From a virus: a stretch of DNA of 31,121 nucleotides. The DNA lies in IMG/VR virus record IMGVR_UViG_3300017991_001349, positions 1 through 31,121 of that record. One strand, written 5' to 3'. A model generated the notes under the pieces. It worked only from the letters and a program-made list of their open reading frames with translations, ran no database searches and had not been told where the DNA came from. How positions within the stretch are numbered: the first letter of the stretch is position 1; every line of letters begins with the position of its first letter. Made by a program: the position numbers and the translations under genes. This document shows, in pieces, positions 2,164 to 30,560 of the stretch.

Positions 2164-2182
2164 GATTAAACGTCGTTTAATC
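2164..2182. repeat. Dispersed palindrome, site 1 (19 bp perfect)
   Basis: GATTAAACGTCGTTTAATC is a perfect inverted repeat around T2173 and the longest form of the nine dispersed sites. It lies just upstream of the queE ribosome-binding site, where a bound protein could block or steer transcription into the queE operon. Confidence 0.85.
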
Positions 2183-6671: not shown

Positions 6672-7227
6672 CTATCACGTCCTCTTCCTTGAATCCACCA
6701 TCCTTAGTGGCGTGTTGCAGCAACCCCAGTAGCTTTCCTACGGAGCCGCGCAACTTCTCTCTGACTACAACGGCTGTCGGGTTGTTGTCGCTAGACTCCA
6801 AGCCGATAGCGAGATTGAATTGCTTGATGTCGATTGTAGGGGGCGCGGCGTCCGCTGAGAAGTTACCAGACACCTTGCATCTGTTGAGAATATCAATTGC
6901 GGCGTATACCTGGGCGCTTGTCGGGGCAGCTTCTTCTACTTCCCCGACTCTGTTCACCTTGTCGCCCTGTAACGCACGGGCCAAGACTGTCAACGAAGGC
7001 CACGCCAGCTTATTCAACTCTTGTTGAAGGTAAAAGGCGGCGCGTTCTTGTATTGAACGCCGGTCCTCAAACGCGGACATTTGCCGCTGGACTTCTCGCG
7101 CGACCAGCGTCCGACCGAGAAAGCGATCAAACTCTCCCTTCTTCATCTTCAGTTCCGCACGCGCACCCTCCGCGCCCAGAACGGCGATCAAGCGGCATTG
7201 TTCTCTATCTTTATCAGTTAGGGCCAT
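6529..7227 (-). CDS. Probable terminase small subunit
   Basis: This 232-residue protein lies directly upstream of terL, the normal place for the subunit that recognises packaging sites. The N-terminus (about 5-45) resembles a small helix-turn-helix: DKDREQCRLIAVLG followed by GARAELKMKKGEFDRFLGR. A central helical region follows. The C-terminus (about 190-232) is an extreme Arg/Lys tail that overlaps the start of terL. The assignment rests mainly on position and the HTH-like start; no diagnostic motif is visible. The ATG abuts the 17-bp palindrome at 7228-7244 with no recognisable Shine-Dalgarno in between. Translation may therefore be leaderless or coupled, and a protein on the palindrome would cover the whole initiation region. 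Confidence 0.65.
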   Translation of the reverse strand: MALTDKDREQCRLIAVLGAEGARAELKMKKGEFDRFLGRTLVAREVQRQMSAFEDRRSIQERAAFYLQQELNKLAWPSLTVLARALQGDKVNRVGEVEEAAPTSAQVYAAIDILNRCKVSGNFSADAAPPTIDIKQFNLAIGLESSDNNPTAVVVREKLRGSVGKLLGLLQHATKDGGFKEEDVIDADATVKATPRLPHKKESKKQTSRSSRATVKKHRRPRRKKKDRGHAE

Positions 7228-7244
7228 ATTAAACGACGTTTAAT
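7228..7244. repeat. Dispersed palindrome, site 2 (17 bp perfect)
   Basis: ATTAAACGACGTTTAAT ends exactly at the start codon of the presumed small terminase gene. The minus strand reads TTTAATATG across the junction. It replaces the usual ribosome-binding site, which is unusual in this genome and suggests direct control of the packaging genes. Confidence 0.85.
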
Positions 7245-7249
7245 CGAGA

Positions 7250-11164: not shown

Positions 11165-11356
11165 CTACGGCATAGCGCCGGGCGTCCACTCGCAAGGAAA
11201 CCAAAGATCGGCATCGACTCCGATACCGCACTCAGGACAAGTCCAAAGAATGCCCACTAACACTCTGCGGCCACGTCGATTGGTACGTGTCGCCCGGTAT
11301 TCGCCAATCGCGTCTTCCTCGACCTCCGCCTTGCATTTAGGGCATAAATAACGCAT
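11165..11356 (-). CDS. Small zinc-ribbon protein
   Basis: A 63-residue protein built around two Cys pairs, CPKC at residues 5-8 and CPEC near 40-43. This is the classic zinc ribbon seen in transcription and replication accessory factors. It follows the FEN gene by 10 nt. Its ATG overlaps the dispersed palindrome at 11355-11371. The nearest GGAG is 13 nt from the ATG, farther than in most genes here, so initiation may be weak, coupled to FEN translation, or affected by a bound protein. The target is unknown. Confidence 0.7.
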   Translation of the reverse strand: MRYLCPKCKAEVEEDAIGEYRATRTNRRGRRVLVGILWTCPECGIGVDADLWFPCEWTPGAMP

Positions 11357-11371
11357 TAAACGACGTTTACT
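11355..11371. repeat. Dispersed palindrome, site 3
   Basis: The 13-bp core is perfect and the outer right arm has one mismatch (CGTTTACT). It bridges the stop codon of the FEN gene and the start codon of the small zinc-ribbon gene, overlapping both. Confidence 0.8.
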
Positions 11372-12473
11372 CCATGCGCCACTCGGCGGTAGCGCCCCTA
11401 AAATTCCCCACGATGAAACGGAGGTCAGCGCCGACTTGACGCATCTTGAATCGTCGCGTCACCGCACGCAAGCCGTCGAAGTCGATACGCCCGCGCACAA
11501 TGTCGCGCTCCTGGTTGAGAGAGCGAGCTACTAGCTTAGGTGTTAAGCGTAGGTCCATACAGAGCATATTAGCCAGCACTCGCGCCCGTTCATCATACAG
11601 CCGTTCCAGTATCTTACCCTTGCGCTCCATCGACGCAATATAGTCGATGAACTGCCAAGGCTTAACGAAGTTACCTCGCGATTCGATAGCCGCGTCGATA
11701 ACGTCCTGCGCCTTTTTCTCTCCGATGCCGTGAACGCCGGGAATCTTATCGCCCTTGTCTCCTACCATCGCCCGGCGTGGCAAGTAGTACCAATCGGGCT
11801 TGGTGATTAGTTCATCTGGATTCTTGAATACGCCGGGGCGAAAGAGACGTACGCGACCGTTGACAAGCTGGATCATGTCCTTGTCAGTAGTCACAATCAC
11901 TACGTCGTCGTCCTCGACCAAGTAACGCGCAATCCACGCTATAACGTCGTCGCCCTCCCACCCCGGCACGCGTATCGTGTTGATTCCAAGCATGGGGAGT
12001 ATTTCTTCGACCAAGGGTAGCTGCGCCCTGTATTCCTTCAGGAACTGCGCACGCTTTTCATCTTCTTCGGTCGGGGCGAGTCCTAAGCCAAACTCCATAG
12101 CGTGAGCGGCACCTGTCTTCTTGCTGGCTTCCTTCACGTAAGCCTTGAGCAAAGAGACGTGGCGACCTTGTGTTAGGCACTCTCGCGGAGTGCAACGGCG
12201 CGGGGCTAACAGGTCGTCCAGGCTATACTCGGTGTAGTACGATCCTGGCCGGTCTATCTTGTACGTCGGCACTAGCTCTCGACGGAAGTCGGGACGCCCC
12301 TCATCGAAAACTACAAAGATGCCGGTAAAGCCACGCCCGCGTATAAACGCGTTTAGGGATATAATCGAGCCGTGCAACGCACCTGTGTAAGTTCCATCAG
12401 GGGCTTGTAAGCCAAGATGGGTATGAGTTTGTCGCCCGACAAGATTATTCCCGTCAACAACGAGTACCGGCAA
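11367..12473 (-). CDS. 5'-3' exonuclease / flap endonuclease (T4 RNase H-T5 D15 type)
   Basis: Removes RNA primers and 5' flaps during replication. The 368-residue protein has the FEN layout: VLVVDGNNL at the N-terminus; FVVFDEGRPDFRRELVPTYK in the first third; GWEGDDVIAWIA and VIVTTDKDMIQLV in the middle; then the helix-hairpin-helix block GDKGDKIPGVHGIGEKKA. These supply the acidic metal ligands. The start is a TTG directly after the upstream TAG (TAGTTG). It is chosen because it alone gives the conserved first strand, and no ATG or GTG is available there. An even-spaced relative of the dispersed palindrome (TAAACGCGTTTA) occurs inside the gene at 12344-12355. Confidence 0.9.
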   Translation of the reverse strand: MPVLVVDGNNLVGRQTHTHLGLQAPDGTYTGALHGSIISLNAFIRGRGFTGIFVVFDEGRPDFRRELVPTYKIDRPGSYYTEYSLDDLLAPRRCTPRECLTQGRHVSLLKAYVKEASKKTGAAHAMEFGLGLAPTEEDEKRAQFLKEYRAQLPLVEEILPMLGINTIRVPGWEGDDVIAWIARYLVEDDDVVIVTTDKDMIQLVNGRVRLFRPGVFKNPDELITKPDWYYLPRRAMVGDKGDKIPGVHGIGEKKAQDVIDAAIESRGNFVKPWQFIDYIASMERKGKILERLYDERARVLANMLCMDLRLTPKLVARSLNQERDIVRGRIDFDGLRAVTRRFKMRQVGADLRFIVGNFRGATAEWRME

Positions 12474-13106: not shown

Positions 13107-13195
13107 GTTACACACTCCGAAGAGAGAGAGGACAAGAAAATGACGGGCCGCGCGACTGAGCGCCGAAGGATTCACCAGCCGCGCGGCCTCACCGG

Positions 13196-13212
13196 ATTAA
13201 ACGTCGTTTAAT
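13196..13212. repeat. Dispersed palindrome, site 4 (17 bp perfect)
   Basis: ATTAAACGTCGTTTAAT lies in the 116-nt spacer between the ParB-like gene (its stop is 10 nt away) and the 12474-13106 gene. The remainder of the spacer, 13107-13195, shows no other clear signal apart from the GGAG ribosome site. Confidence 0.85.
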
Positions 13213-13222
13213 AAGACGGAGG

Positions 13223-14335
13223 TTATTCCTCTTCTTCCTCGCCTTCCTCTTCTTCCTCGCCTTCCTCTTCTTCCTCGCTGGACATCTCCGCGACCTGTTC
13301 TACCAAGCCCCCGAAGGCTTCCAAGAAGGAATTGTCGTCCAGGTCGTCGGGATGCTCGCACTCCCCGATGGACCACAGGCCGAAAGCGACGCCGTGCTTG
13401 AGACGCAACGCCATTTCTTCCTTGCCTTCTTCCTCGTAGTCCACAACGTCGCTGGTCATCAACAGCAACATCCGACGCACGTCCTTCATACCGCGCCGTA
13501 GCGCGATCTTGTCGCCGCTGGACCCCGGCGTCGGGCGCTTGGACTTGCCCTTACCGGCCTTGACGCCCTGCGCCTCGGCGAAGTCGTTCGCCAGTTCCTT
13601 GACCTCGCGCTCCGTGGCGCGGTCGCCGAGATCGGGCAGGACCGCCTTCTGGACTTTCGTGTCCAACTTCGTGACGGCAATCGCAGCTTGTTTGCTCAGG
13701 GTGCCTTCCGCAAGCCGCCGCTTGACTTCCCTCGGAGCATCGAGCAACGGAACGGACTTGCGGACCTTCATCGCGGAGCAACCACAAGCCGAAGCAACTT
13801 CCGCGAAGGACATTTCGTTCTTCTTGTCGCCGTCGCCGGTAAGCATACGGTTGAACGCCGCCGCTTCGTCGAGCGGCGGCAGGGCGTAACGAGCGTCGGT
13901 ACTGTTCTCCGACATCGCCAAGCCCAATGCGTCCAGGTCGTTGTCCATATCCAAGCGGACAACAACGGGGACAGCCTTGAGGCCAGCCGCTATCGCGGAC
14001 GCCTTACGGCGATACCCGCATAGGACTTCGTACTCACCGTCAACCGAGTTGCCCCTCTTGTCCTTCTTGGGACGCACAACCGGCGGCTGCAGAAGGCCCT
14101 TCTTCTTGATGCTCGCCGTCAGTTGAGAGATGTCGCCCAGGTCGGACCTGGGATTGAACTTCTTGATTTCGTGCAGGTTGTCGAGCGGCACTTCAGCGGC
14201 GATACCGATGTTCTTGCCCTTCTTGCCCGTACCGAACACGACGGCGGAGGGATCAGCCGCCTTCGTCTTTTCCTTCGTCGCGGTTGCGTTGCCCTGAGAC
14301 TTGGCTTTCGCCTTCTTGGCTTTCTTCTTAGCCAT
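13223..14335 (-). CDS. ParB/KorB-like DNA-binding protein
   Basis: A 370-residue member of the ParB/Spo0J family. The N-domain carries NPR at about 61-63, GLLQPPVVRP near 80-89 and CGYRRKASA near 106-114, the ParB box II region (usually GERR). This domain binds CTP in studied ParBs. A helix-turn-helix follows at about 175-195 (SFAEVASACGCSAMKVRKS), with a further helical region (REVKRRLAEGTLSKQAAIAV). The last 20 residues are almost pure Glu. Known ParB proteins bind palindromic sites for DNA segregation; KorB of plasmid RK2 also represses genes from many dispersed sites. No ParA is visible in the window. A promoter lies upstream and GGAG is 9 nt before the ATG. Site 4 of the palindrome family is just past its stop, so it is the leading candidate to bind these sites. 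Confidence 0.85.
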   Translation of the reverse strand: MAKKKAKKAKAKSQGNATATKEKTKAADPSAVVFGTGKKGKNIGIAAEVPLDNLHEIKKFNPRSDLGDISQLTASIKKKGLLQPPVVRPKKDKRGNSVDGEYEVLCGYRRKASAIAAGLKAVPVVVRLDMDNDLDALGLAMSENSTDARYALPPLDEAAAFNRMLTGDGDKKNEMSFAEVASACGCSAMKVRKSVPLLDAPREVKRRLAEGTLSKQAAIAVTKLDTKVQKAVLPDLGDRATEREVKELANDFAEAQGVKAGKGKSKRPTPGSSGDKIALRRGMKDVRRMLLLMTSDVVDYEEEGKEEMALRLKHGVAFGLWSIGECEHPDDLDDNSFLEAFGGLVEQVAEMSSEEEEEGEEEEEGEEEEE

Positions 14336-17302: not shown

Positions 17303-17319
17303 AATAGTCTCCGATACAG

Positions 17320-17336
17320 ATTAAACGACGTTTAAT
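17320..17336. repeat. Dispersed palindrome, site 5 (17 bp perfect)
   Basis: ATTAAACGACGTTTAAT lies 17 nt upstream of the SSB start codon and just above its GGAG ribosome site, in the 44-nt gap after the UvsY-like gene. Confidence 0.85.
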
Positions 17337-17346
17337 ACCAGGACCG

Positions 17347-17874
17347 TTACTTTTTCAACGTCCTAACAGGTCGGCCCCCTTGCCTGTCATCACGCATGTT
17401 TGCACCAATGGAGTTCAACAGGGCGCGTCGCGCCAACCACGCTTCGCGGATATGCTCTAATAGACGGACCTCAGCTTCAGCTTCATCCAACGACTCTTGA
17501 ATGGCGATCATCTTATCGTGCAACTGCACTTCCGAATGCAAATCGTCGAGCGAATAGTTATCGCCCTTGACCTTACGATTCCTTTCATACAGTTCTCGGT
17601 ATGAACGGAAGTAGGTTGCCTTAGTTATCGCGTGTTGTGACCTTATGCTGTCCCGGCGAGTTCGGGCGTCTTCCAAGGCGGCTGCCCACCAAAGGAATCT
17701 TCCCGGATGTTCAATCATAGTACGATTTATATCCTTTCCTGTCAAGGATATTTCTTCGTAAGGATTCACCTTGTACTTATTACCTGCGACGTGGACGACT
17801 ATTGGCCCCAGGTCTTTTAAGGCTTCCAGGGAGTCAACGACTTTCAGTTTACGCGTCTTTCTCTTAGGCGACAT
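17347..17874 (-). CDS. UvsY-like recombination mediator (tentative)
   Basis: A 175-residue, mostly helical protein. Residues 55-160 follow the pattern of T4 UvsY-type proteins: a short HPGRFLWWAAAL helix, a long charged helix with ATYFRSYRELYERNRKVKG, then a second helical pair ending in AWLARRALLNSIGANMRD. UvsY loads the UvsX recombinase onto gp32-covered DNA, and this gene lies directly next to the gp32-like SSB and near UvsX. The match is a pattern, not a diagnostic motif. The N-terminal 50 residues form a separate small beta domain. GGAGG lies 6 nt before the ATG, and the start overlaps the polymerase stop by 11 nt. It could instead be another phage helical accessory protein. Confidence 0.5.
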   Translation of the reverse strand: MSPKRKTRKLKVVDSLEALKDLGPIVVHVAGNKYKVNPYEEISLTGKDINRTMIEHPGRFLWWAAALEDARTRRDSIRSQHAITKATYFRSYRELYERNRKVKGDNYSLDDLHSEVQLHDKMIAIQESLDEAEAEVRLLEHIREAWLARRALLNSIGANMRDDRQGGRPVRTLKK

Positions 17875-20845
17875 TCAATACCTCCATGTCCCGCTTGTTG
17901 CACGCGGCCCGCGACTTGCGCAACAAGTCACGCAACGTTTTGTCTCCGATGTCCTTCCCTACCTTCTGCATGTCGCGCCAGTTTACGCCGATCTGAACGT
18001 CTGCCTTGCACGGCACGCGCTCCAACACCGACAAGTCCAAACCGTCTCCCCATATCTCTGGGATATGCTCGATCATGTTCGGCATAACGTCTTGGAGCAA
18101 CTTGATAGCGTCCCGCAAAACCTCCCGCCTCACGTCGAATACGATACTGTCATGCACCGTCAGTATCGGGAACGCCTTACCCGACAGATGCTTGGAGTCG
18201 TCCATCAGTTCCGACATGCGAGTCAACGCGGTTAAGGTCATATCGCTTGCGGAGGATTGGATTATGTGATTGACCGCTTGCCTACGCGCACGCGCCTGCG
18301 TGTCCTCATTCTCACTGTATATCTCGGGCAACCGCCGACGCCGCAGGAATAACGACTCGATAAAGCCCTGCTCTTCGGTGAGATCGATCATATCGTAGAT
18401 CCACCGCTTAACAAGCGGATACGCGTCATAGAAGGTATCGATGTATCCACGCGCTTCATCGTCGCTAATGTGAATCGGCGGCTCTTGGGACGCCAACTGC
18501 CCCGCAATACCTCTGCCACCAATGCCATACGCAATACCGAAGTTTACTCGTTTGGCTACAGTACGCCAGAACGCCGCCTTCTCCGCTGCCTTGTGACCTC
18601 CCTTCGCCAGTATCTTCAGGTCCTTCTTATCCAGTTTGGCTCGCATCTCCGAAGTGAACAGCGCCGGATCGACAGGCTTCTCCGCTTCCGCCAAGTAGTA
18701 TATCTCAGGTGTTATGCCAAAGATTTTACACGTAGTTAGCAAGTGGAGGTCTTCCCCCCGTGCGAACGCTTCCAGCATTGCAGGGTCACGAGAGAACGCG
18801 GCCAGCAACCGCAGCTCAACCTGTGAATAGTCAGCGTACAGCAGCGCCCCGTCGCCGCCCCACCGGGATATAAGCGGGCGATAAGGATCGCCGCCGCCTT
18901 GGTGGCTTACATTCTGCAGATTCGGGTTAGAACTCGACAGCCTGCCCGTAACGGCGACGTGTAAGTTAAAGTTACCGTGGACAAACCCCTTTTGCTTCCG
19001 GCTTGCGTCCCACAGTCCGTACAGGTAATCCGAAATAATCTTATCCAGTCGATAGCGTTTGAGGGCCTGACAGAAATCGCACTTGTAGTCCTGGATTAAA
19101 TTGACTAGCACGGTCTTGTCAGTCGAAGGTTGGCCTTTCTTAGTAAGGTAATACGGCGCGTAGTCGAAGTATTTCTCGCTAAACAACAACTCGGATAACT
19201 GCGGGGTGGAGTTAAGCGAGAAATCCGACTTGCCATTTTTCTCACGCGCCTTGATAAACCGCCGCACTTCGGGAACCTTCTTGATCGAAGCAAGCGTTTT
19301 CTCCATCTTCTCGTCGTATACCGCCTGATATTGCCGGGCTTTCTTGTGGTTGACTCGCGCCCCGCGCCACTCCATACGCATCAACGCCCGGCTGGCGCGG
19401 GGCATGAACCTCTCGGACAACCGGAACAGCGCGTGCGGATCGTGCTCGTCCAGCGCCATGTCGTCCTTCATCGACTGACGTATACGCTTGGTCGCGTCAA
19501 CGTCCATCGCGTTATAAGGCAGGAATGACTGAGGCGAAAGCCTGTGTAGTTGCCAATTAGCCTCCTCCCTGTCCTCACCGCCAGAGGCATCTTCGTATCC
19601 GCCCATACCTGTATAGTGCCACGCCAGAACCTTGAGGCCGTGACCTGGATTCTCGTTTATGCCGACACAGTGCTGCAGCATAGTATCTGGGGCCGGGGGC
19701 GGCACACACCCTAAATGCTCCAGGACGTACTGGTCGTCAAACTTTCGGTTGTGTGCTATGAAAGACAGCCCTGGCGCGTCAAACAGCTTGCGAATCTCCG
19801 AATCTATTATCTGCCTTTCCTTCTTCGTCCAGCGGTACTCGTCGTGGTCGAGTAGGATCGAGAAGCCGAATCCTTCCTTGTCCGAAAAGGCGATTGAACA
19901 CAGGCGACTTTTCTGTCGGTAGGCGTTGAGCGAGTTTGCTTCAATATCATACGCGACCTCAAGAGCCGGGAGATCAAAGGCCCATCGATAGTTACCTTTG
20001 CGGCGCAGCTCACGCATCTTCGTACGCCAAACGATTAAATCCAGCGGACCTCCAGGCCAGAACGTCCAATAAGTACCGGAGCCGCGCAATTCCGCGTATT
20101 CGTTCTCCTCGTCCTCAGCCACCCCAGCTAAAACCGCCAGACGTATAAAGTTCTCGTAGTAGTCTTTGATTAAATGATCGGCGCGGAGTACGTAAGCCGG
20201 GTGGAACATCGGGAAGATCGTCGCTTCGCGCCCGCATACCTTGGCTTTAAACTCCGTGGATTGGCAATTCATCCTATTTACGTACGTACCTACTGCCGCC
20301 TTGGAGTTACCTGTCACAGCGCGTAACGCCGTCGCCCCCAGCGGGACTATAAACTCAGGCTTGACTTGCTCGATCTCTTTCGCCAGGAAGGTAGTACACG
20401 GTATGGACTGCGGGTACGTCGGCGTACTGTTATCGGGAGGGCGGCACTTAACGGCGTTGGTGATATAAACGTCGTTTAATGTGAGCGGGACGTACTCCAG
20501 CGCCGAGGTCAATATCTCCCCGGCGGGGCCTACGAATGGCTCACCCTCCCTATCTTCCACGCTCCCCGGCGCTTCGCCGATGAGCATTATGTTTGCCGAC
20601 TTGGAACCCTTGCCGCCGAGACAATGAGAGGTAACGACGTGTTTAACTCCCTTCGCGTTCTTTCTCCCCTTCCACGCAGACAGGTCAGCGCCCTTCACGT
20701 ACTGAAAAAACGTACAGTTGTTGCAACCAAAGCGGGCTTCGTTAATATTGGGAGTTAGCTTTGAGGTAGAACCAATTTTAGGACTACGTTTCGCACTAGC
20801 TTTGCTAGTACGTCGATTTCGTCGGGTGCTAGATTCCATCGCCAT
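17864..20845 (-). CDS. Uracil-DNA glycosylase/family A DNA polymerase fusion
   Basis: A 993-residue replicative polymerase with an N-terminal family 4-type uracil-DNA glycosylase. The glycosylase part (about 38-240) shows GEAPGSVEDREGEPFVGPAG at 90-109, NAVKCRPPDN, HPAYVLR, and four Cys (C41, C44, C134, C150) spaced like the 4Fe-4S ligands of the family. A 3'-5' exonuclease domain follows (VAYDIEANSL). The polymerase domain has motif A ADYSQVELRLLAAFSRD, motif B KRVNFGIAYGIGGRG and motif C TVHDSIVFD. A similar fusion is known in phage SPO1. AAGGA lies 8 nt before the ATG, and the start overlaps the preceding gene by 91 nt. Palindrome site 6 is inside the gene. It probably replicates the genome while checking for uracil. 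Confidence 0.93.
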   Translation of the reverse strand: MAMESSTRRNRRTSKASAKRSPKIGSTSKLTPNINEARFGCNNCTFFQYVKGADLSAWKGRKNAKGVKHVVTSHCLGGKGSKSANIMLIGEAPGSVEDREGEPFVGPAGEILTSALEYVPLTLNDVYITNAVKCRPPDNSTPTYPQSIPCTTFLAKEIEQVKPEFIVPLGATALRAVTGNSKAAVGTYVNRMNCQSTEFKAKVCGREATIFPMFHPAYVLRADHLIKDYYENFIRLAVLAGVAEDEENEYAELRGSGTYWTFWPGGPLDLIVWRTKMRELRRKGNYRWAFDLPALEVAYDIEANSLNAYRQKSRLCSIAFSDKEGFGFSILLDHDEYRWTKKERQIIDSEIRKLFDAPGLSFIAHNRKFDDQYVLEHLGCVPPPAPDTMLQHCVGINENPGHGLKVLAWHYTGMGGYEDASGGEDREEANWQLHRLSPQSFLPYNAMDVDATKRIRQSMKDDMALDEHDPHALFRLSERFMPRASRALMRMEWRGARVNHKKARQYQAVYDEKMEKTLASIKKVPEVRRFIKAREKNGKSDFSLNSTPQLSELLFSEKYFDYAPYYLTKKGQPSTDKTVLVNLIQDYKCDFCQALKRYRLDKIISDYLYGLWDASRKQKGFVHGNFNLHVAVTGRLSSSNPNLQNVSHQGGGDPYRPLISRWGGDGALLYADYSQVELRLLAAFSRDPAMLEAFARGEDLHLLTTCKIFGITPEIYYLAEAEKPVDPALFTSEMRAKLDKKDLKILAKGGHKAAEKAAFWRTVAKRVNFGIAYGIGGRGIAGQLASQEPPIHISDDEARGYIDTFYDAYPLVKRWIYDMIDLTEEQGFIESLFLRRRRLPEIYSENEDTQARARRQAVNHIIQSSASDMTLTALTRMSELMDDSKHLSGKAFPILTVHDSIVFDVRREVLRDAIKLLQDVMPNMIEHIPEIWGDGLDLSVLERVPCKADVQIGVNWRDMQKVGKDIGDKTLRDLLRKSRAACNKRDMEVLNVA
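20464..20480. repeat. Dispersed palindrome, site 6 (intragenic, polymerase)
   Basis: The 13-bp core TAAACGTCGTTTA (20466-20478) is perfect and the outer left arm has two mismatches. It lies about 370 nt inside the polymerase gene and encodes LNDVY. Confidence 0.75.
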
Positions 20846-21261
20846 TTATTCGTTCCTTTTATGCGCTTTAGCCCCGTGTACCCTCGAAGGATCGGGACTG
20901 ACGCCAGCAATACAACCACGTCGATCTCACGCACGTCGGCGCGTGTTACTTCCACGATCTCGTAAGCCCGCGTGCCGTAGTCATACACCCATAGGCTTCG
21001 CCCAGTCTCCGAAGCACAACGTAATCCTACGTCTCCCAGAGCGCGGTGTATCTCAACCCACACAGCGGGATCGTCCTGCTTAATAGTTAATACGGGTTCG
21101 GCGTCAATGACAGACACGGCCTCTGCGACGGGGCGCGGGGTCGGCAACAGTTTGATCGGGCTTCCCTCATTGAATCGAGTCAAACACCTTGCCCAAACTG
21201 CACACTCCCGACAAGTCGTGTCTACCAAAGGCGGCGACACTAAACAAGTGGGATACTTCAT
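20755..21261 (-). CDS. Hypothetical protein with N-terminal four-Cys cluster
   Basis: Unknown function, 168 residues. It starts with a compact cluster C6-x10-C17-x2-C20-x5-C26 that could bind zinc or an Fe-S cluster. The same spacing, except for one residue, opens the 25965-26738 protein. The rest is an alpha/beta domain ending in RIKGTNKWRWNLAPDE and a hydrophobic helix. The ATG lies at the end of the DUF932-like gene (overlap 4 nt), and the stop lies 91 nt inside the polymerase gene, so the three are likely co-translated. The position in the replication block suggests a DNA-metabolism accessory role. Confidence 0.65.
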   Translation of the reverse strand: MKYPTCLVSPPLVDTTCRECAVWARCLTRFNEGSPIKLLPTPRPVAEAVSVIDAEPVLTIKQDDPAVWVEIHRALGDVGLRCASETGRSLWVYDYGTRAYEIVEVTRADVREIDVVVLLASVPILRGYTGLKRIKGTNKWRWNLAPDEIDVLAKLVRNVVLKLVLPQS

Positions 21262-22292
21262 GCGGCCTTTGCAGCCCGTCGCATAATATCAAACGCGTAA
21301 GACTCCATTTCACGGGCGCGGTCCATGCTGTCCTGTTCGTGCGCCTGGGACGTCAAACCGTTGGCGATGTCAAACGCCGTGACGCCAGTAACAGGAGCCT
21401 CCGCGCGTGCATTAGATAGCGACTTGTTAGCCAGGACCATCGAGAACCGCTCCGCGATGCCCCGACCTATATCACGCATACTCGTATCAGACAAGACGTA
21501 ATGCGCCGCTTTATCAATGGTGGAAATCATACTGCCACTGGCGATAAACGAAGTCTCGATACAGGCTGCCGCCCGTTTGATAATGTCGTCGGTGTCGCCT
21601 CGATGCACAATACGCCCTATGTGAGTCTTGACAGACGACACCACGCCGTTAGTACACACCAAACGCAATACGTAAGCCGACGTCTTGAAAGCGTTGTATC
21701 CCTCCATTGAGTTTACGAAGTCAACGCCAGTATGGTGCGGGTCGTCTCCGCGCACCTTCACAACGTTCTTGTCCACAAAACGTCCGCGCATTCGTACGCC
21801 TTCCATCGAAAACGAAGACGGGCGCATAGAGTGGCGTTCAAGTAAATCGGGCATAACGCTGATGATACCCTGGTTGGACAGAACGGCGTACTTCTCCGAT
21901 ACGATCCCCACGACCTTGTTGTCGTACATAACAAACTTCAAGCCGCGCCCCCTACGGTTGTTGGCGCGAGCGTTGACGATCCGCGCGGCGAGGTCGGGGC
22001 GGAACGCCGACTCTTCCTCGATAAAACGCATCGGGACATCCAGTATATTCATATAGGACGAAAACCCGTAGCGCGTTAGGCGAGCGCCCGCCGCAGCACC
22101 GTAACTGAGCACGCCGTCAGGACTGATCTTGTGGTCGTCTGCCGAGACGTACTGTGTTTTCCGCTCACGGTCTGCTACGAGGTCCTGTATTTCCTCGAAC
22201 GACGGCTGCTTTAGAGTCGTCATAGTGAGCGGTGCGAACAAAAAGTTACCCAAACGATTCCATCGCCGCCTACGCGGCATGTTCGCTTCCAT
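21258..22292 (-). CDS. DUF932-like protein
   Basis: A 344-residue protein whose middle resembles DUF932: VGIVSEKYAVLSNQGI (about 128-143), a later FVNSMEGYNAFKTSAY block and LRLVCTNGVV. These correspond to the family's VSERY..l.N, nsHDGs and R.VCtN positions. DUF932 genes are common on phages and plasmids and their function is not established. The ATG at 22292 is chosen for GAGG 5 nt upstream; a GTG at 22334 would extend it by 14 residues into the promoter leader. It is the first gene after its own promoter at 22346-22373 and is followed by the Cys-cluster protein and the polymerase, probably one operon. Confidence 0.75.
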   Translation of the reverse strand: MEANMPRRRRWNRLGNFLFAPLTMTTLKQPSFEEIQDLVADRERKTQYVSADDHKISPDGVLSYGAAAGARLTRYGFSSYMNILDVPMRFIEEESAFRPDLAARIVNARANNRRGRGLKFVMYDNKVVGIVSEKYAVLSNQGIISVMPDLLERHSMRPSSFSMEGVRMRGRFVDKNVVKVRGDDPHHTGVDFVNSMEGYNAFKTSAYVLRLVCTNGVVSSVKTHIGRIVHRGDTDDIIKRAAACIETSFIASGSMISTIDKAAHYVLSDTSMRDIGRGIAERFSMVLANKSLSNARAEAPVTGVTAFDIANGLTSQAHEQDSMDRAREMESYAFDIMRRAAKAA

Positions 22293-22345
22293 GACTACCT
22301 CACTAGGATATTGACCAAGGGGGACGGAGAACACTGGAGACTGCT

Positions 22346-22373
22346 ATAATATATTTTATACGATAGCTGTCAA
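22346..22373 (-). promoter_or_regulatory. Sigma70-type promoter for DUF932-polymerase operon
   Basis: TTGACA (22368-22373) and TATTAT (22346-22351) with a 16-nt AT-rich spacer on the minus strand. It is the strongest match seen, in the gap between the primase stop and the DUF932-like start, and probably drives the polymerase gene. Confidence 0.8.
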
Positions 22374-22376
22374 GGA

Positions 22377-23372
22377 TTATTTTCCTAATAGCTGTTCGAC
22401 CATATCCAAGAAGCCATCGACCTCCACGCGTTGCGACAACATTTCTTCGAGATGCGGCCTGTGGTCGTCGGGATCGCCTTCCTCGAAGGGCAAGTAACTA
22501 ACCCGCTTACCTGTAGCTTCGGCTAGTTCAGCGGCGAGTTCTCTTGCGCGGTCTTGGGCGTCTGCGTCCAGTGCAACGATTATCTCTTTCGCCTGGACGC
22601 GAGACAGCAACCGTCTTTGCTGTCTCGATAGATTCTGCCCCAGCAGCCCTATCCCATGCTCTCCGAAGGCAATAGCGTCCATAGGTCCTTCAACAACAGC
22701 TACCCAATCGTCCACAGTCGCTGCGCGGTCGTAACCGTAGAGAAAGGCGTCCCGCGAGCCTTTCGGGTGTAGACTCTTGGACGTGCTAGAAATGAACGCC
22801 CGCGACGTGAAGTAAACCATCTCGCCGTTCATATACAGCGGAAATATAACGTGGCCCGCGTACAGTCCTTTCGTGCAATACCCCAACCCCCAGTCGTCGA
22901 TGTCGTCGTCTGTAAGCCTTCGCCCGAAGGGTCGAGGGCTTGTCAGCCAAGAGTACATGAGTTTAGCAAACACACCGCGAGGCGGTACGTGTAGACGCTT
23001 GAACTCCTCCGGGAGCATGATCGTCTCGGTAGTGTCTTCCTTGAATATTTCCTCTACTATTTTCACGATGTCTTCGGTCTGCTGCGTCACACGCTGGAAG
23101 GCGATTCGCGGCACGCGCCCGAGAACGTCGCGCAAAAGGTTATACATCGAGCGCGTCTTGTACCCGCACTTGTGACACAAAGCCGCCCCGTGATACATCG
23201 CGCCGTTATGCCGTCCGCGCTTGTTGGGATTTACGTGCAACTTCGAGGGTGGGTGTATGCCCGCCTTAATACAGAAAGGACAGGTGAAGTCTGATTCCTG
23301 TCCTTTCTTTTTGGGCGAACCTAATCGCGCCGACAGGGCGTCGATGACAGTCAAACGCTTGCGCTTTGCCAT
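22377..23372 (-). CDS. DnaG-like primase (zinc finger and TOPRIM)
   Basis: A 331-residue primase that makes RNA primers. A CHC2-type zinc finger lies near residues 28-70 (CPFC, later CHKC). The TOPRIM domain shows VVEGPMDAIAFGEHGIGLLG and IIVALDADAQDRARELA, giving the catalytic Glu and Asp pair. The ATG at 23372 follows the methyltransferase stop by 1 nt (TAGAATG), so translation is probably coupled; a TTG seven codons earlier is less likely. The C-terminal helicase-interaction region of bacterial DnaG is absent, as in other phage primases. It works with the DnaB-like helicase encoded two genes upstream. Confidence 0.9.
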   Translation of the reverse strand: MAKRKRLTVIDALSARLGSPKKKGQESDFTCPFCIKAGIHPPSKLHVNPNKRGRHNGAMYHGAALCHKCGYKTRSMYNLLRDVLGRVPRIAFQRVTQQTEDIVKIVEEIFKEDTTETIMLPEEFKRLHVPPRGVFAKLMYSWLTSPRPFGRRLTDDDIDDWGLGYCTKGLYAGHVIFPLYMNGEMVYFTSRAFISSTSKSLHPKGSRDAFLYGYDRAATVDDWVAVVEGPMDAIAFGEHGIGLLGQNLSRQQRRLLSRVQAKEIIVALDADAQDRARELAAELAEATGKRVSYLPFEEGDPDDHRPHLEEMLSQRVEVDGFLDMVEQLLGK

Positions 23373-23373
23373 T

Positions 23374-24606
23374 CTACTCAAACCTATCAACAAACCGACG
23401 AACAGCTATACGAAATGCCTGCGGATCGCTGTCGATGCCGATGAATCGACGCCCTTCCAATAGCGCAGCAATGCCCGTCGTGCCAGACCCGGCGAAAGGG
23501 TCAAGCACTATGCCACGCGCGGGGGTCTTAGTCAGACGGCATAGGTAACGCATTAGCTTGATAGGCTTAACCGTCGGCACGTCGTTGTAGTCTCCGCGCT
23601 CTCTCCGACTAGCCTTCGCGCAATAGAAGAACCGAGCCGCCGAGCCGTCGTCTCCCAATCCGCCCGCGTTGCGCCCCACCTTGTTCCGCGCCCAGCCGTC
23701 GTTATACACAGGGCCAGAAAAAGCAGCTTGGCGTGTAGCCTTCCCCTTACCGCCCGTTGACTTGCTCCGGGGGAACGAACGCGTTACCTCTTTGCTCCCA
23801 TCGTGTATCAGATTCGCGGGCCAGCGGCCTTTTAGCTCGCCAGGGTGTTCCTCACTATATGACTTCGGACGGGCTGCCGTACGCCAACCAGAAGGGCCTA
23901 CCGAAGCAACGGGAGCACCGTAAGCACGCCGCGCTACGGAAGGGCTGGGGCCGTCGGTAGGAACACGGCATTCGTCTATGTTAAGACCGGCAACGCCATG
24001 TGTTAAGGCATTTTGGGCGTAATTGCCGTCAACAGGATTCAACGCGACCACAATAGGCTCCCAAGCTGGCTTGAGCGCGGTGCCGTATCCCTCCCAAAGT
24101 TTAGACTCGACAGACGCGGGGGATGTCTCGAACGTGACTAGGTTCGTACCTTGGCCGTCCCCGTATTTCTTGTTAGGACTCCGAACATGCCTGACGCCGG
24201 TAACTTTACGCTTCTCTCCCAGTTCTTTATCAATCGCCTTGGATACATCGATGCTTTTCGGGAACCCGCTCCCGTAAACCCACATGATCGTGTCTACGAT
24301 CTGGAATCCCGCGCGTTCGATCCCCATAGCCAAGTGGTGCCACATACGCGTGCCGCCAAACGCCAGCAACAACCCGCCGGGCTTCAATACGCGTCGCATC
24401 GCATTCGCGGCGCGTTGCATAAACTTCTGGAAGTCGAACCCAGAATCAAAGCTATCCCAGGCCCTGCTCATAAACGCTAAACCGTATGGCGGATCGGTGA
24501 TGATCGTATCGACGGAGTTTTCCGGCATACTCCGCATGATCTCCAGGCTATCCCCACGATACAGGTGGGCGTGAGCGAAAGCAGTATGACACTTCCTAAG
24601 CAGCAT
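23374..24606 (-). CDS. DNA N6-adenine/N4-cytosine methyltransferase
   Basis: The 410-residue protein has the order of a beta-class amino-methyltransferase: catalytic motif IV TDPPYG at about 37-42, then motif-like VLKPGGLLLAFGG, and at the C-terminus PTVKPIKLMRYL followed by the SAM-binding motif DPFAGSGTTG. The DPPY motif fits adenine-N6 methylation better than cytosine C5, but N4-cytosine cannot be excluded. Residues 130-330 are a long target-recognition insert. The recognition sequence is unknown; no restriction enzyme lies next to it, so it is probably a solitary protective methylase. The start overlaps the helicase stop by 11 nt. Confidence 0.88.
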   Translation of the reverse strand: MLLRKCHTAFAHAHLYRGDSLEIMRSMPENSVDTIITDPPYGLAFMSRAWDSFDSGFDFQKFMQRAANAMRRVLKPGGLLLAFGGTRMWHHLAMGIERAGFQIVDTIMWVYGSGFPKSIDVSKAIDKELGEKRKVTGVRHVRSPNKKYGDGQGTNLVTFETSPASVESKLWEGYGTALKPAWEPIVVALNPVDGNYAQNALTHGVAGLNIDECRVPTDGPSPSVARRAYGAPVASVGPSGWRTAARPKSYSEEHPGELKGRWPANLIHDGSKEVTRSFPRSKSTGGKGKATRQAAFSGPVYNDGWARNKVGRNAGGLGDDGSAARFFYCAKASRRERGDYNDVPTVKPIKLMRYLCRLTKTPARGIVLDPFAGSGTTGIAALLEGRRFIGIDSDPQAFRIAVRRFVDRFE

Positions 24607-25975
24607 CGTCCCCGTCCTTCCTACTCCTAGAAATCCGCTTGGCTTTGTTCATCACCCGTTTCTGTATCTCGGCCTTATCACCTTTCTTCTTGCGGCGGGA
24701 CTTGGAGGGCTGAATTATCTCCAACGACCGCCACAGCGAGCGCGAGTGATCTACCGAGCAGCGAATAAACTTGCCGTCCTGCACGTCACGCAGCGCCGTC
24801 ATGTATATCCTGGCTTCGTTGACGCTCTTTTCGTCCTTGGTCTGACACAGAGCCAATATCGCATCGGCAATCTGCACCTTCTCGAAGGACTCCGCGACGT
24901 CCTCGATGGTGACAACATCTTTCGAGAGCGATTTACGATTCGCTTGCGTAGCCGTCCAAACAGGCAAGTCAAACTCACCCGCGAGTTCTCGAAGATCCTC
25001 CATGTTCGCCGCTTCCTGACCTCGACGCTGTTCATCGAGCCTACGTTCCGGCTTCATAATGTCCACGTAGTCGGCAAACACCACATCGGGTTTGAAGCCG
25101 CACGCTATAATCTCCGATAACACAGCCCGCATGTCAGTCGCCCCTGCCGAACGCGTCGGCCACCACTGGACTACGGCTTCCCCTCGTACCAACAACTTAG
25201 CACGCGCCTTGAGCGCCGTCGTGAAGCGGCGGGGGTCGTCATACTTGTGCTTGGATACAGTCCCCGCGAATCTGTTGTCAAACCGTTCCAGTACCTTCGT
25301 GTCGTGTAACTCCCACGAAAAATAAACGACGTTTAATCCGTGGAGCGCCCCGATCATGTTGGAGCCGAAAGACACCAACACATGCGACTTACCTTTCTTA
25401 GTAGGAGCCATTATAACCCCGACTTCTCCGGGGCCTAATCCTCCAAGCATACACTGGTCGAGATGAACAATCCCCGTCGGAATTAAACGGCGCAAGTCAG
25501 GGTTGAGATAGCGGCGGATACGGGAATCCATGTCCCGCAAGAAGTAAGATCGGGAGCCTTTGAGCGCCCGCCCCAGGTTATCCGCCGCACGCACCATTTC
25601 CAGAACGCCGGTAGACTCGCCCTGTCGCAACTGTAGCGCCCCGTCTTTGATAGCGCCAATCAGGGCTTTGTCACGCAACCAATCGACAACCTCTCTCACA
25701 ATGTATTCGTGATCGCGTACGTCTTCCTCCAACAGTTCGTCAATCAAGTCGGTGTCGCCGCACGCGTCGATCAATACAGCGCGAGACGGCATTCCGCCAC
25801 CCTGCTTATGTACCTCTATCGCCCGCTCGACAATCTCAGCTAAATAATCCAACGTAAACAATTCAGGGTCGATTATCCCAACTAGGCGAGCTAGTACCTT
25901 CGGCAGACGGATGATGCACGCGGCTATATGCTTCTGCATCTCCCCACCGAACTTCCGCTCTGGTTTAATTATCAT
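24596..25975 (-). CDS. DnaB-like replicative helicase
   Basis: Unwinds DNA at the fork. The 459-residue protein has a DnaB-type N-terminal domain and a RecA-like motor. Walker A is APTKKGKS at about 190-197, with Ala where Gly is usual. A VVYFSWELHD segment, the Walker B strand VVFADYVDIM and the WTATQANRKS motif follow, matching DnaB order. The tail is basic. The ATG has GAGG 5 nt upstream and overlaps the preceding stop by 11 nt. The primase and methylase genes follow. Palindrome site 7 and a half-site (ATTAAACG at 25482-25489) lie inside the coding region. Confidence 0.9.
   Translation of the reverse strand: MIIKPERKFGGEMQKHIAACIIRLPKVLARLVGIIDPELFTLDYLAEIVERAIEVHKQGGGMPSRAVLIDACGDTDLIDELLEEDVRDHEYIVREVVDWLRDKALIGAIKDGALQLRQGESTGVLEMVRAADNLGRALKGSRSYFLRDMDSRIRRYLNPDLRRLIPTGIVHLDQCMLGGLGPGEVGVIMAPTKKGKSHVLVSFGSNMIGALHGLNVVYFSWELHDTKVLERFDNRFAGTVSKHKYDDPRRFTTALKARAKLLVRGEAVVQWWPTRSAGATDMRAVLSEIIACGFKPDVVFADYVDIMKPERRLDEQRRGQEAANMEDLRELAGEFDLPVWTATQANRKSLSKDVVTIEDVAESFEKVQIADAILALCQTKDEKSVNEARIYMTALRDVQDGKFIRCSVDHSRSLWRSLEIIQPSKSRRKKKGDKAEIQKRVMNKAKRISRSRKDGDDAA
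25321..25337. repeat. Dispersed palindrome, site 7 (intragenic, helicase)
   Basis: Perfect 13-bp core TAAACGACGTTTA (25323-25335) with one mismatch in the outer left arm. It lies about 650 nt into the helicase gene and encodes LNVVY, the same codon phase as site 6 but in an unrelated protein. Confidence 0.75.
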
Positions 25976-26738
25976 GCTGACCTCGGGTTAAAGAGTTCAC
26001 AAACTCGACGGCATCCGTCCAGCGTATTTTGTCGCCTTCGAGAGTGCCGCACTGGCGGGAGAGTCCAGGACGCACACGGTCAAGAACTTGCACAAGTGCG
26101 CGGGGAGTTGCGTAGGTCGGACGCTTCCACTTCGAGTACACCTTGCGTACTTCCTTCGCGGCAGCATCGGGCTTGTGACCAACAAGCAGCAACTCTCCGA
26201 ACAAACACTCTGCCAAGAACGTGTCGTCGTAGTCGGTAGCGTCGCGGGGGTCTTCTCGGACGTTCTCGAACAGGCCGGGAGTGTCTCGCAGGAACTCGCG
26301 GTAACGATCCGCAGCCTTCTCAGACGTGAATATGCCAGGGAACAAAGGCTTCCGTTGCGCTCCAAGCCACTTACCTAAAGCGGCGTATTGTGCCTTCAAG
26401 AATATCTCCGGGTCAATATCCTCACTAACACAGTACGCGAGCACCTTGTCCATAGCTTGTCGAAATTGGGCGTAGCGGAGGTTACGCTTTAATCCGCCGT
26501 ATTGCTGTTGGAACTCTTCGCAGGCATGAATAGCTTGCGGGACCGTCAATTCCTCCGCTTTGTTCTTCTTTTCTTCCTTTACCGTCTCGCTCTGCTCTTT
26601 CAAGGTGACAACGCTCACAAACTGAGCACTCATTTCCTCGCAAGCCTTCCGGTACATACAACGACGGCACGTCCACCCTTCCGGCGTGCTACCGAGACAT
26701 AACGGGCTTGCGCCTCTTGCAGCCTTTCGCTTTGCCAT
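25965..26738 (-). CDS. Hypothetical protein with Cys cluster; possible helicase partner
   Basis: Unknown, 257 residues. The N-terminus has C14-x9-C24-x2-C27-x5-C33, nearly the same cluster as the 20755-21261 protein, followed by a charged helix. The rest is mostly helical (VPQAIHACEEF, FRQAMDKVLAYC, an AEKAADRYREFL-like helix). It sits between the UvsW and DnaB-like genes and overlaps the helicase start by 11 nt, the place where phage helicase loaders often occur; that is position-based inference only. The start overlaps the end of the UvsW gene by 50 nt. Confidence 0.7.
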   Translation of the reverse strand: MAKRKAARGASPLCLGSTPEGWTCRRCMYRKACEEMSAQFVSVVTLKEQSETVKEEKKNKAEELTVPQAIHACEEFQQQYGGLKRNLRYAQFRQAMDKVLAYCVSEDIDPEIFLKAQYAALGKWLGAQRKPLFPGIFTSEKAADRYREFLRDTPGLFENVREDPRDATDYDDTFLAECLFGELLLVGHKPDAAAKEVRKVYSKWKRPTYATPRALVQVLDRVRPGLSRQCGTLEGDKIRWTDAVEFVNSLTRGQHDN

Positions 26739-28293
26739 TAGACGCCCCGGTTATCTCCCCGGCTTGTCGGCGCATCTGCACCAATAGACGCGGGAAATTA
26801 TCCACGTTGAATACCTTCCACTTCTGATCGACGTATGCTTCCAGCCGCGCCTCCGCATTCTTTATCAGGTAGTCATTGCATAAATGCCCAAAGTCGAAGA
26901 CCAGTACGTTGCCCTTTCCCGTCAACACACGCCCTACACGCTGGACAGCGGCGGGTTGTTTGGCGCGATGCTTAGTTCCCATCCCACCAGCCAGGATAAC
27001 CGCATTAAGCGCGGGCATGTCCTCGCCTTCATCGAATACAGTTGACGCCAGCATAACGAACCCGCCCCGCTCCTGCATCAACTGCTTAAAGTCCTCACGG
27101 GCCGCGTATTCGGTATTGCCTGTTACAAGACGACTCCGTACCCGGCGGGCCATTAGCTTCTCCTGTATGCTCCGTAATTGCGGGAGACGGTGCGACAAGA
27201 CCAAAACACGGCACTTCGCGCTGAGGAGTGCTTCAGCGAGTTCCGCAACGGCCCGGTTGTAGACGTTGTTCTGGACAATACCTTGACGATGCGCTTGCTG
27301 CCATTCCTTCTTGAAATCCCGGTCAGACTTCTTAGGTGGCAGAGGGCGATAACGCTTCTTGCGGCTCCCGTGCCACTGGATAGCCTTCTCGACCTCAAAG
27401 CCTCGCCCGAAAATGTTAGGGTCAGTGATAAAATAGATTAACGGCTGCGCAACACGCCCCATCGCGGCCATATCATGCGCGGTGCGCCTCACGCGTATCG
27501 GCCCTATCGCCGCTTCCAAGCGAAGGTCGCTTATCTCTTTACCCGTCTCAGGCGTCGCCGACACGCCCCAACGTAAGCGACACGGGGTCATCATAAACAC
27601 GTCGTACCAAGTCCGGGCCGATCCGTGATGGCATTCATCTCCGAAGAAGAAATCGGCCTCACGCAACACCTGATACTCAGGTCCGCTAATCTGCCCGCGC
27701 AATACCTTAGCCATTGTCTGCGACGTAGCGATAGTGATCTGCCCCGTCTTCTTAACCCCAGCCCCGAGTTGTCCGACTTCATACACGCCGTCCAGGCGTT
27801 CGTTAAAGCGTGCCACGGTCTGCCGTAACAGCCCCGCTCTGGGAACCAGCATGTAACCAAACAGCCCACGCTCCATCAACGCGGACGCCATAGCTATCAT
27901 AACTTCGGTCTTGCCTGAACGCGTGGCGGCTTCCAGGACGCCGCTACCCGCGCGTAGGAGCGTGTTCGCTGCCTCAACCTGATCGGGATAGAGTGTGATG
28001 CCAAATAGCTGATGTTTATCGACGCGTACGCCAGGGTCTTCACGCTTACCTTGCACTTTGATCGTATGGCCGTCCTTGATTAAACGACGTTTAATCCGCT
28101 CCAGGAATCCAGTCGGAAAGGTCTTCTTGGCGCCGTCGTAAAATCGGTGCTTCCCGTCGTACGATCCTGCCTGATACGAAGTCTTGAATCGCGCTTGCGT
28201 GTCTTCAAAAGTCAATATACGGTCCACGACGCCTGCCGGGCCGTCGAGCAGCTTCGTATACGCACCTTTGATTCTAAACCTTACAACAGACAT
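26689..28293 (-). CDS. Superfamily 2 DNA helicase (T4 UvsW-like)
   Basis: A 534-residue helicase that remodels branched DNA and R-loops. An N-terminal RFRIKGAYTKL region precedes the motor, as in UvsW. The first RecA domain has LYPDQVEAANTLL (Q-motif-like), Walker A AATRSGKTE, and the DEAD-box variant GDECHH; motif III reads VSATPE. The second domain has STVFDEGEDMPALNAVI and QRVGRVLTGKG, motifs V and VI. The second of two ATGs, at 28293, is used because GGAG lies exactly 6 nt before it, as in other genes here. It has its own promoter. Palindrome site 8 is inside the gene. Confidence 0.9.
   Translation of the reverse strand: MSVVRFRIKGAYTKLLDGPAGVVDRILTFEDTQARFKTSYQAGSYDGKHRFYDGAKKTFPTGFLERIKRRLIKDGHTIKVQGKREDPGVRVDKHQLFGITLYPDQVEAANTLLRAGSGVLEAATRSGKTEVMIAMASALMERGLFGYMLVPRAGLLRQTVARFNERLDGVYEVGQLGAGVKKTGQITIATSQTMAKVLRGQISGPEYQVLREADFFFGDECHHGSARTWYDVFMMTPCRLRWGVSATPETGKEISDLRLEAAIGPIRVRRTAHDMAAMGRVAQPLIYFITDPNIFGRGFEVEKAIQWHGSRKKRYRPLPPKKSDRDFKKEWQQAHRQGIVQNNVYNRAVAELAEALLSAKCRVLVLSHRLPQLRSIQEKLMARRVRSRLVTGNTEYAAREDFKQLMQERGGFVMLASTVFDEGEDMPALNAVILAGGMGTKHRAKQPAAVQRVGRVLTGKGNVLVFDFGHLCNDYLIKNAEARLEAYVDQKWKVFNVDNFPRLLVQMRRQAGEITGASNGKAKGCKRRKPVMSR
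28078..28096. repeat. Dispersed palindrome, site 8 (19 bp perfect, intragenic)
   Basis: GATTAAACGACGTTTAATC is perfect over 19 bp inside the UvsW-like gene, about 200 nt past its start. It encodes RIKRRLI, a different codon phase from sites 6 and 7. Confidence 0.85.
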
Positions 28294-28322
28294 CATACTC
28301 TCCGAATATTTACACACCGCCC

Positions 28323-28433: not shown

Positions 28434-28604
28434 TTACCTCCGCCCCTTCTTGGCAGTCTTCTTCTTGGCTACCTTCTTCTTCGTGGCCTTCTTCTTCGTG
28501 GCCTTCTTCTTCTTCGTGGCCTTCTTCTTGGCAGTCTTCTTCTTGGCTACCTTCTTCTTGGTGGCACGCTTTCCGCCGCCACCGCCTTTTGCGGGTCCAC
28601 CCAT
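28434..28604 (-). CDS. Small Lys/Ala-rich histone H1-like protein
   Basis: A 56-residue protein made of GGPAKGGGGGKR and then repeated five-residue units of the type (A/V/T)(T/A)KKK. Nearly half the residues are Lys, as in bacterial and eukaryotic H1 C-terminal tails, so it should bind DNA or RNA without sequence preference and may compact or shield phage DNA. The ATG at 28604 is chosen because GGAG lies 6 nt before it. An upstream in-frame ATG at 28736 would make 44 more residues, but that stretch lies in the structured leader and reads unlike a protein. It is transcribed after an elaborate RNA leader and ends at an intrinsic terminator. Confidence 0.75.
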   Translation of the reverse strand: MGGPAKGGGGGKRATKKKVAKKKTAKKKATKKKKATKKKATKKKVAKKKTAKKGRR

Positions 28605-28616
28605 AACAATCTCCTC

Positions 28617-30174: not shown

Positions 30175-30194
30175 CACGATCTCTCCTGTGTTGT

Positions 30195-30332: not shown

Positions 30333-30360
30333 AATATACCCCATAATGGCGCGAAGTCAA
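30333..30360 (-). promoter_or_regulatory. Sigma70-type promoter next to palindrome site 9
   Basis: TTGACT (30355-30360) and TATATT (30333-30338) with a 16-nt spacer on the minus strand. The palindrome begins 3 nt upstream of the -35, a place where a bound protein could activate or block it. The transcript would meet the 30254-30278 hairpin first. Confidence 0.65.
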
Positions 30361-30363
30361 GCG

Positions 30364-30380
30364 ATTAAACGACGTTTATT
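30364..30380. repeat. Dispersed palindrome, site 9
   Basis: Perfect 13-bp core TAAACGACGTTTA (30366-30378) with one mismatch in the outer right arm. It lies in the non-coding control region, immediately beside a -35 element. Confidence 0.8.
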
Positions 30381-30560
30381 GTTTACGGGGCTTTACATGT
30401 ACGTTAGACTGTACCTACCGTGTGGGAACCCTCTAGGGAGCGATGTTCCGTCGCTTACTCTCAAGTCCTTCCCTACACAGGAAAGATGCGCTTCCCCGGC
30501 GGCAGGTTCTGGACCATGCGGGACTTGCCCAAACTTCGGTGAGCGCAAGTGCTACACGGC
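30381..30560. other. Non-coding stretch with a possible 18-codon plus-strand ORF
   Basis: Together with the sites listed, this fills the 414-nt gap between the fibre gene and the QueD-like gene. The plus strand has an 18-codon frame at 30486-30542 (MRFPGGRFWTMRDLPKLR) with AGGAAAG just upstream, then a strong plus-strand terminator. That combination suggests a short plus-strand transcript, either a small RNA or a mini-peptide. No convincing plus-strand promoter was found, and no tRNA was recognised. Confidence 0.3.

Follow-up and report, generated by a model that had tools for sequence, protein, structure and literature searches.

Evenly dispersed palindromes beside an orphan parB gene in an uncultured phage clade, probable loading sites of ParB clamps

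The window analyzed here, i.e., the entire linear virus record IMGVR_UViG_3300017991_001349 of 31,121 bp, carries nine copies of an odd palindrome, and dispersed palindromes of this kind occur in 12 relatives. They are real and selected at the DNA level throughout the clade, and one of them adjoins parB in every contig holding both. Binding by the ParB-family protein encoded there is very probable, judging from sequence, and a function of the palindromes as loading sites of orphan ParB clamps along the phage genome appears probable as well.

Nine copies in the window and three within genes

The 13-bp core TAAACGWCGTTTA, set in a frame of 19 bp, is present nine times in the window, corresponding to a mean spacing of one site per 3.5 kb. 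After these copies, the next-best match shows 5 mismatches of 18, near-miss forms of the core are absent from the window, and the pattern read backwards as a control gave no match in it. Six of the nine sites are intergenic, though only 5.8% of the sequence is, and five touch or closely precede start codons, all annotated genes being located on the minus strand. Site 1 (2164..2182, GATTAAACGTCGTTTAATC) is perfect and lies 11 bp upstream of the queE start, site 2 (7227..7245, TATTAAACGACGTTTAATC) at the start codon of the gene upstream of terL, while site 3 (11354..11372, CATTAAACGACGTTTACTC) overlaps the stop codon of a FEN-like gene and the start codon of the next one. Site 4 (13195..13213, GATTAAACGTCGTTTAATA) falls in the gap separating parB, whose stop is at a distance of about 10 bp, from the following gene, and site 5 (17319..17337, GATTAAACGACGTTTAATA) is found 17 bp upstream of a SAP-domain gene. 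Site 9 (30363..30381, GATTAAACGACGTTTATTG) is situated about 3 bp upstream of a sigma-70-like promoter, TTGACT-N16-TATATT (30333..30360, minus strand), predicted by consensus match only.

An earlier note, made from the window alone, had drawn attention to full cores inside the genes for a polymerase and two helicases, and these are indeed found at sites 6 to 8, three of the nine copies. Site 6 (20463..20481, ATATAAACGTCGTTTAATG), with the 13-bp core intact and four outer mismatches, resides in pol (17864..20845, minus strand), an ORF combining, according to Pfam matches, DNA polymerase A, a 3'-5' exonuclease and an N-terminal uracil-DNA-glycosylase (UDG)-family domain. Site 7 (25320..25338, AAATAAACGACGTTTAATC; two outer mismatches) is within the gene of a DnaB-like helicase (24596..25975, minus strand) and site 8 (28078..28096, GATTAAACGACGTTTAATC) within that of a UvsW-like (ResIII/DEAD) helicase (26689..28317, minus strand), the latter site being perfect over 19 bp, as had been noted, apart from the unpaired centre base. 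Reading of the coding strand agrees with the peptides and the two codon phases proposed: TTA AAC GAC GTT TAT encodes LNDVY at site 6, TTA AAC GTC GTT TAT encodes LNVVY at site 7 and ATT AAA CGT CGT TTA ATC encodes IKRRLI, part of RIKRRLI, at site 8, with the centre base of the palindrome at codon position 2 twice and at position 3 once. Given these peptides and the codon usage of the phage, where TTA makes up 9.5% of the Leu codons, the codons employed have probabilities of 3.3e-3 (site 6), 1.2e-3 (site 7) and 2.0e-4 (site 8). Across all window genes, three cores were observed in coding DNA versus 0.03 expected from 300 synonymous shuffles (maximum 1). Chance origin of the window sites is excluded by the counts, the backwards-pattern control and these shuffles.

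The claim that it is DNA and not protein that is conserved at these positions stands for pol and uvsW, whose peptides vary among relatives, but not for DnaB. There, the family typically has LNVV, and LNVV or NVV is kept in several relatives with other codons and without palindrome; at this site, the codons alone are special and the protein is conserved, too. In the relatives, the homologous codons do not form a palindrome and the own copies are located elsewhere, the pol sites of contigs G024 and G027, for example, mapping to window residues of about 260 and 338, with the window site at 122. Since the location of the sites changes from one relative to the next, an orthologous comparison of synonymous conservation is not applicable. 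As the palindrome could form an A+U-rich stem in the transcript, RNA hairpins in mRNA might be considered, but the centre, which is asymmetric, is found in either orientation with respect to the direction of transcription (A/T in the window; GCTGG/CCAGC in G017), so this explanation is next to negligible.

An uncultured clade with a drifting motif

Single-protein searches of IMG/VR resulted in one distant locus for ParB and none for the polymerase, and isolated phages reach TerL identities of up to 34% only. The clade was opened by an alignment of distant TerLs, resulting in contigs with TerL at 42–50% identity, and on these sequence grounds the window is a member of an uncultured phage clade, which is probably lytic. 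The gene order recA-parB-FEN-sbcD-sbcC-terL-portal is common to many clade contigs. A strict search for recurring words with symmetric arms, in contigs covered in large part or whole, revealed dispersed odd palindromes in 13 contigs, the window plus 12 relatives (G016, G017, G021, G022, G023, G024, G025, G027, G028, G030, G031, and G034), at 4–55 copies per contig when allowing up to 3 mismatches, a limit at which the lists include some false members that would blur, not create, even spacing.

The common form is TTGACAC-N-GTGTCAA, with half-sites mostly in the frame TxAC. In the ten motif contigs holding ParB, the half-sites read, from outside in, gATTAAACG (window), cCTGGACcC (G017), cgTTGACAC (G021), tCGTaACAC (G022), CAGTGACAc (G023), GAtTGACAc (G024), gtTTGACAc (G025), gATTTACGC (G027), aaTTGACGC (G028, site sequence TTTGACGCAGCGTCAAA), and GTTTGACAC (G031). 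Position 6 is a near-invariant A, position 7 is C in all but the window and position 4 is T in all but G017, the window half-site being the most diverged of the clade in its inner part. Compared in this way, the motifs are best described as one type of site whose sequence drifts. The near-identical ParBs of G022 and G042, which share the motif, are not independent, and G022 alone was counted among the ten.

Selection at the DNA level is evident clade-wide, with coding copies above synonymous shuffles in every contig tested: 10 versus 0.0 in G027, 8 versus 0.2 in G016, 5 versus 0.05 in G017, 6 versus 0.25 in G030, 9 versus 1.3 in G022, 30 versus 4.3 in G024, 17 versus 2.3 in G021, 10 versus 2.3 in G023, 18 versus 1.95 in G025, 16 versus 2.75 in G028, and 9 versus 2.75 in G034, whereby genes of the relatives were called by a simple longest-ORF scheme and coding/intergenic splits are approximate.

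Four further contigs with ParB (G012, G032, G036, and G039) show no clear dispersed palindrome in their short stretches of 18–24 kb; among them, G032 was set aside with two to four weak candidate sites, though its ParB recognition helix is closest to that of the window. Exact motif scans of IMG/VR resulted in 10 and 39 stretches with nearly all single copies, and the one two-copy stretch (L344) lacks any protein resembling those of the window. When palindromes were sought loosely, with up to 3 mismatches, codon-periodic words of the TCGNCGA type dominated the output, and the strict arm-symmetry search was used instead. In Arthrobacter phage Maja and Gordonia phage Bowser, both of which possess ParB, dispersed odd palindromes did not clearly rise above GC-codon noise. 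A ParB match labelled Acinetobacter phage MD-2021a (L343, CAKLQH020000011.1) was likewise discarded, as it sits among rpsA, gidB, parAB, and other housekeeping genes in what is apparently a bacterial chromosome.

Two of the contigs show additional peculiarities. The densest spacing of the clade is found in G016 (L123), where 19 TTGACAC-N-GTGTCAA-type sites (up to 3 mismatches) are placed within 17 kb at a mean distance of 0.85 kb, parB not being on the fragment. In G017 (L125:17679-19736), a recA-like gene contains an in-frame insertion of about 250 residues that bears HNH-like motifs and resembles an intein.

The ParB protein and its linkage to the sites

The parB gene of the window (13223..14335, minus strand) encodes an orphan ParB-family protein of 370 aa, recognized by Pfam, TIGR00180 and an AlphaFold model. 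The ParB N-terminal (CTPase-fold) domain (aa 51–134; 13934..14185, minus strand) matches Pfam ParB_N with E 2.1e-11 and 44.1 bits (cut-off 26.3), and the ParB HTH domain (aa 152–238; 13622..13882, minus strand), comprising the recognition region CGCSAMKVRKSV, matches HTH_ParB with E 4e-7 and 30.5 bits (cut-off 22.6). TIGR00180 scores 74.6 bits (cut-off 58.45), whereas the Noc profile TIGR04285 with 69.5 bits stays under its 315-bit cut-off. By sequence, the best solved relatives are Caulobacter ParB and then ParB-family proteins from, by their titles, Myxococcus xanthus; matches to solved Noc are weaker, and KorB is found at E 0.009. The model, predicted from a 15-sequence alignment with a mean pLDDT of 78, matches ParB, Noc and KorB in fold searches (KorB 8qa9 at a target TM of 0.75). 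Its C-terminal region (aa 283–360), the part in which ParB-family proteins have a dimerization domain, is predicted to be helical with pLDDT values mostly above 85, and the lysine-rich N-terminus is predicted to be disordered.

Alignment places Box II at 14006..14017 and Box III, ENSTDAR, at 13889..13909 (both minus strand), the E, N, and R of the latter being invariant in 15 relatives. Box II GxxR and Box III ENxxxxR are present in 15 of 15 clade ParBs, all of which keep the last Arg of Box II. Together, sequence and model identify the window protein as a bona fide ParB with a predicted CTP pocket. Box II reads GYRR in the window and GERR, GHRR, GFRR or GHKR in others, i.e., the Glu of GERR, which we take to be E102 of Caulobacter crescentus ParB, is replaced by Tyr in the window, by His in G024, G032, and G036, and by Phe in G025. 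In the C. crescentus protein, the exchange E102A results in defective CTP hydrolysis and clamp reopening, and the variant spread beyond wild type in E. coli (PMC8367383).

A site is found 8–84 bp from a parB gene end in 10 of 10 contigs with both motif and ParB, and parB is the sole shared gene flanked by a site in every contig. Within 200 bp, the corresponding values are 4 of 10 for FEN, 4 of 12 each for terL and portal, 3 of 10 for pol, 0 of 10 for sbcD, 1 of 9 for prim, and 7 of 10 for recA, the last due to the shared recA-parB junction. Combining the distance ranks by Fisher's method gives p = 0.0099, and the probability of all ten being within 100 bp, calculated from the proportion of genes lying this close to a site, amounts to a product of 2.9e-8. 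As this 100-bp limit was set after seeing the data, just above the largest distance of 84 bp, the linkage is considered strong, yet short of proof. Divergence of the half-sites correlates with that of the ParB HTH (Spearman 0.61, Mantel p 0.005) and not with that of the N-domain (-0.01), the values being 0.43 (p 0.089) for TerL and 0.58 (p 0.022) for portal. Since the portal correlation nearly equals that of the HTH, covariation of motif and HTH could also reflect phylogeny.

Alternatively, the palindromes might be operators or stoperators of another phage regulator, their nearness to parB being then due to a chance effect of gene-gap preference. Consistent with this, outgroup phages with a TerL identity of 31–35% (L093, L110, L112, L115, L117, L248/L249, and L251) contain a dispersed even palindrome, TRCAATCGATTGYA, at 6–14 copies per 11–22 kb (up to 3 mismatches), and a ParB-like ORF of 270–290 aa that has GHHR but lacks an obvious HTH_ParB was found at the outgroup loci L112, L249, and L261; dispersed phage palindromes therefore need not mean ParB. 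Moreover, L5 stoperators, the repressor sites dispersed along that mycobacteriophage genome, include short intergenic gaps; they are, in addition, asymmetric 13-bp sequences that follow the direction of transcription and are recognized by a monomer (PMC9283540). The clade sites, in contrast, are symmetric and lie beside parB, which alone among shared genes is flanked in every contig, and an integrase domain was absent from ten records of up to 156 kb, which as contigs are fragments. Another regulator is hence rather improbable. From the two models that the earlier note had offered for the intragenic copies, the stoperator is thus disfavored by the palindromic sites and the missing integrase domain, while the ParB clamp is favored because every one of the 10 contigs has a site adjoining parB, the CTP pocket is present and the spacing is even.

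A ParA-family protein (AAA_31) was absent from 10 records of up to 156 kb, which may be incomplete, at 14 of 14 positive controls, and an LGxGL-type ParA-binding motif was absent from 15 of 15 clade ParBs. Both results speak against a centromere of a plasmid-like prophage that borrows the host ParA or needs none, and so do the tens of sites over up to 156 kb in place of one cluster. Although ParB-only phages with suspected extrachromosomal prophages have been described in the Lacachita report (PMC10286716), such a centromere is very unlikely here.

Spacing, promoter context, and possible functions

In the ten contigs with at least nine sites each, the coefficient of variation (CV) of site spacing is 0.32–0.77, compared with about 0.85–0.97 for random placement. 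The sites are spaced more evenly than expected for uniform placement in 8 of 10 contigs (p < 0.05) and, likewise in 8 of 10, more evenly than random gene junctions, the window being among the most even (CV 0.32, p 0.0016). Intervals in most relatives are 2.3–9.3 kb, and about half or more of their sites are inside called genes. Even spacing argues for genome coverage and against control of chosen promoters. A promoter reading of the TTGACAC palindromes was dismissed, as aligned flanks lack a -10 element, and a shared promoter element was not found in the aligned flanks of up to 54 sites.

These findings also bear on KorB-like control, in which ParB, alone or with a partner, would silence near and distant promoters from the sites and intragenic copies would act as distal operators. 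KorB is a ParB-family CTPase clamp repressing promoters up to 1.5 kb away (PMC11790492), its structure 8qa9 matches the ParB model, and intergenic enrichment in the window, the sites at or near start codons and the promoter-like sequence next to site 9 would fit such a role. Nevertheless, the missing promoter signal in the aligned flanks, the large intragenic share in the relatives and a spacing evener than that of random gene junctions make KorB-like control unlikely. The operators of KorB/RK2 resemble the phage system in having a ParB-family protein and multiple sites, but the phage sites are without consistent promoter association and found also inside replication genes.

For the favored reading, we infer that the palindromes would be parS-like recognition and loading sites of the phage's own orphan ParB, including the one that neighbors parB. 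A ParB dimer would bind the odd palindrome through its HTH domains, one half-site each, and CTP would, by homology, close the N-terminal clamp, which could then leave the site and slide. With sites across the whole contig, inside genes if no gap is handy, clamps might cover the entire phage genome. The likely role would be in organizing or marking phage DNA; plasmid-type segregation is unlikely because no ParA was found, and modulation of transcription may be possible at sites next to promoters. Points against this reading are the rank-based p of only 0.0099, the portal correlation, the ParB records without palindrome, the outgroup, and GYRR. By analogy, and more tentatively, a lytic clade might coat its genome with sliding ParB clamps as a ParA-free phage chromatin that organizes, protects or identifies DNA, and loss of the Box II Glu in some members, the window included, could result in long-lived clamps.

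Chromosomal ParB-parS shares with the phage system the ParB_N CTPase fold with Box II/III, HTH_ParB, palindromic sites and a site beside parB, but the phages are without detected ParA or ParA-binding motif and have odd palindromes of about 17 bp, at 4–55 per contig, evenly spread and many of them intragenic. The ParBs known so far use a small number of loading sites, and in most cases their task is segregation driven by ParA. Noc of Bacillus subtilis is alike in being a relative of ParB that lacks a ParA partner and has numerous dispersed binding sites, with profile similarity below the cut-off; unlike Noc, the system is from a lytic-type phage, its site sequence is unrelated and its ParB has the lysine-rich N-terminus predicted to be disordered. 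The dispersed odd palindrome is also reminiscent of MatP-matS, but matS has the spacing GAC-N3-GTC (GTGACRNYGTCAC) and the clade consensus is GAC-N5-GTC. In E. coli, 23 matS sites in 800 kb organize DNA (PMC3330122). A phage counterpart is Lacachita, also with ParB and without ParA; its authors knew of no characterized phage with ParB alone, some homologues of its relatives are annotated as methyltransferase or DNA modification methylase, and the passages covered here mention no set of sites (PMC10286716). Dispersed ParB sites in ParA-less phages were not reported in the part of the literature covered by our search. KorB and Noc illustrate that dispersed sites can serve ends other than segregation, and a ParA-free phage ParB with tens of evenly spaced sites on a probably lytic genome would, if true, represent genome-wide use of CTP clamps in viruses. 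Besides, the divergence of half-sites and recognition helices among clade members provides a natural series for ParB-DNA specificity.

Further genes of the window deserve mention. A set of queC-like (761-1552), queE-like (Radical SAM; 1563-2153), and queD-like (PTPS; 29371-30177) genes makes 7-deazaguanine modification of the phage DNA possible. Downstream of site 5, a 469-aa protein is encoded (15893-17302) in which SAP and Rho_N domains are accompanied by extended poly-Glu runs. Finally, a 100-aa protein (28434-28736) is built from pentapeptide repeats rich in lysine (KKKATKKKA), which bring histone H1-like tails to mind, and the lysine-rich N-termini of several clade ParBs resemble this protein.
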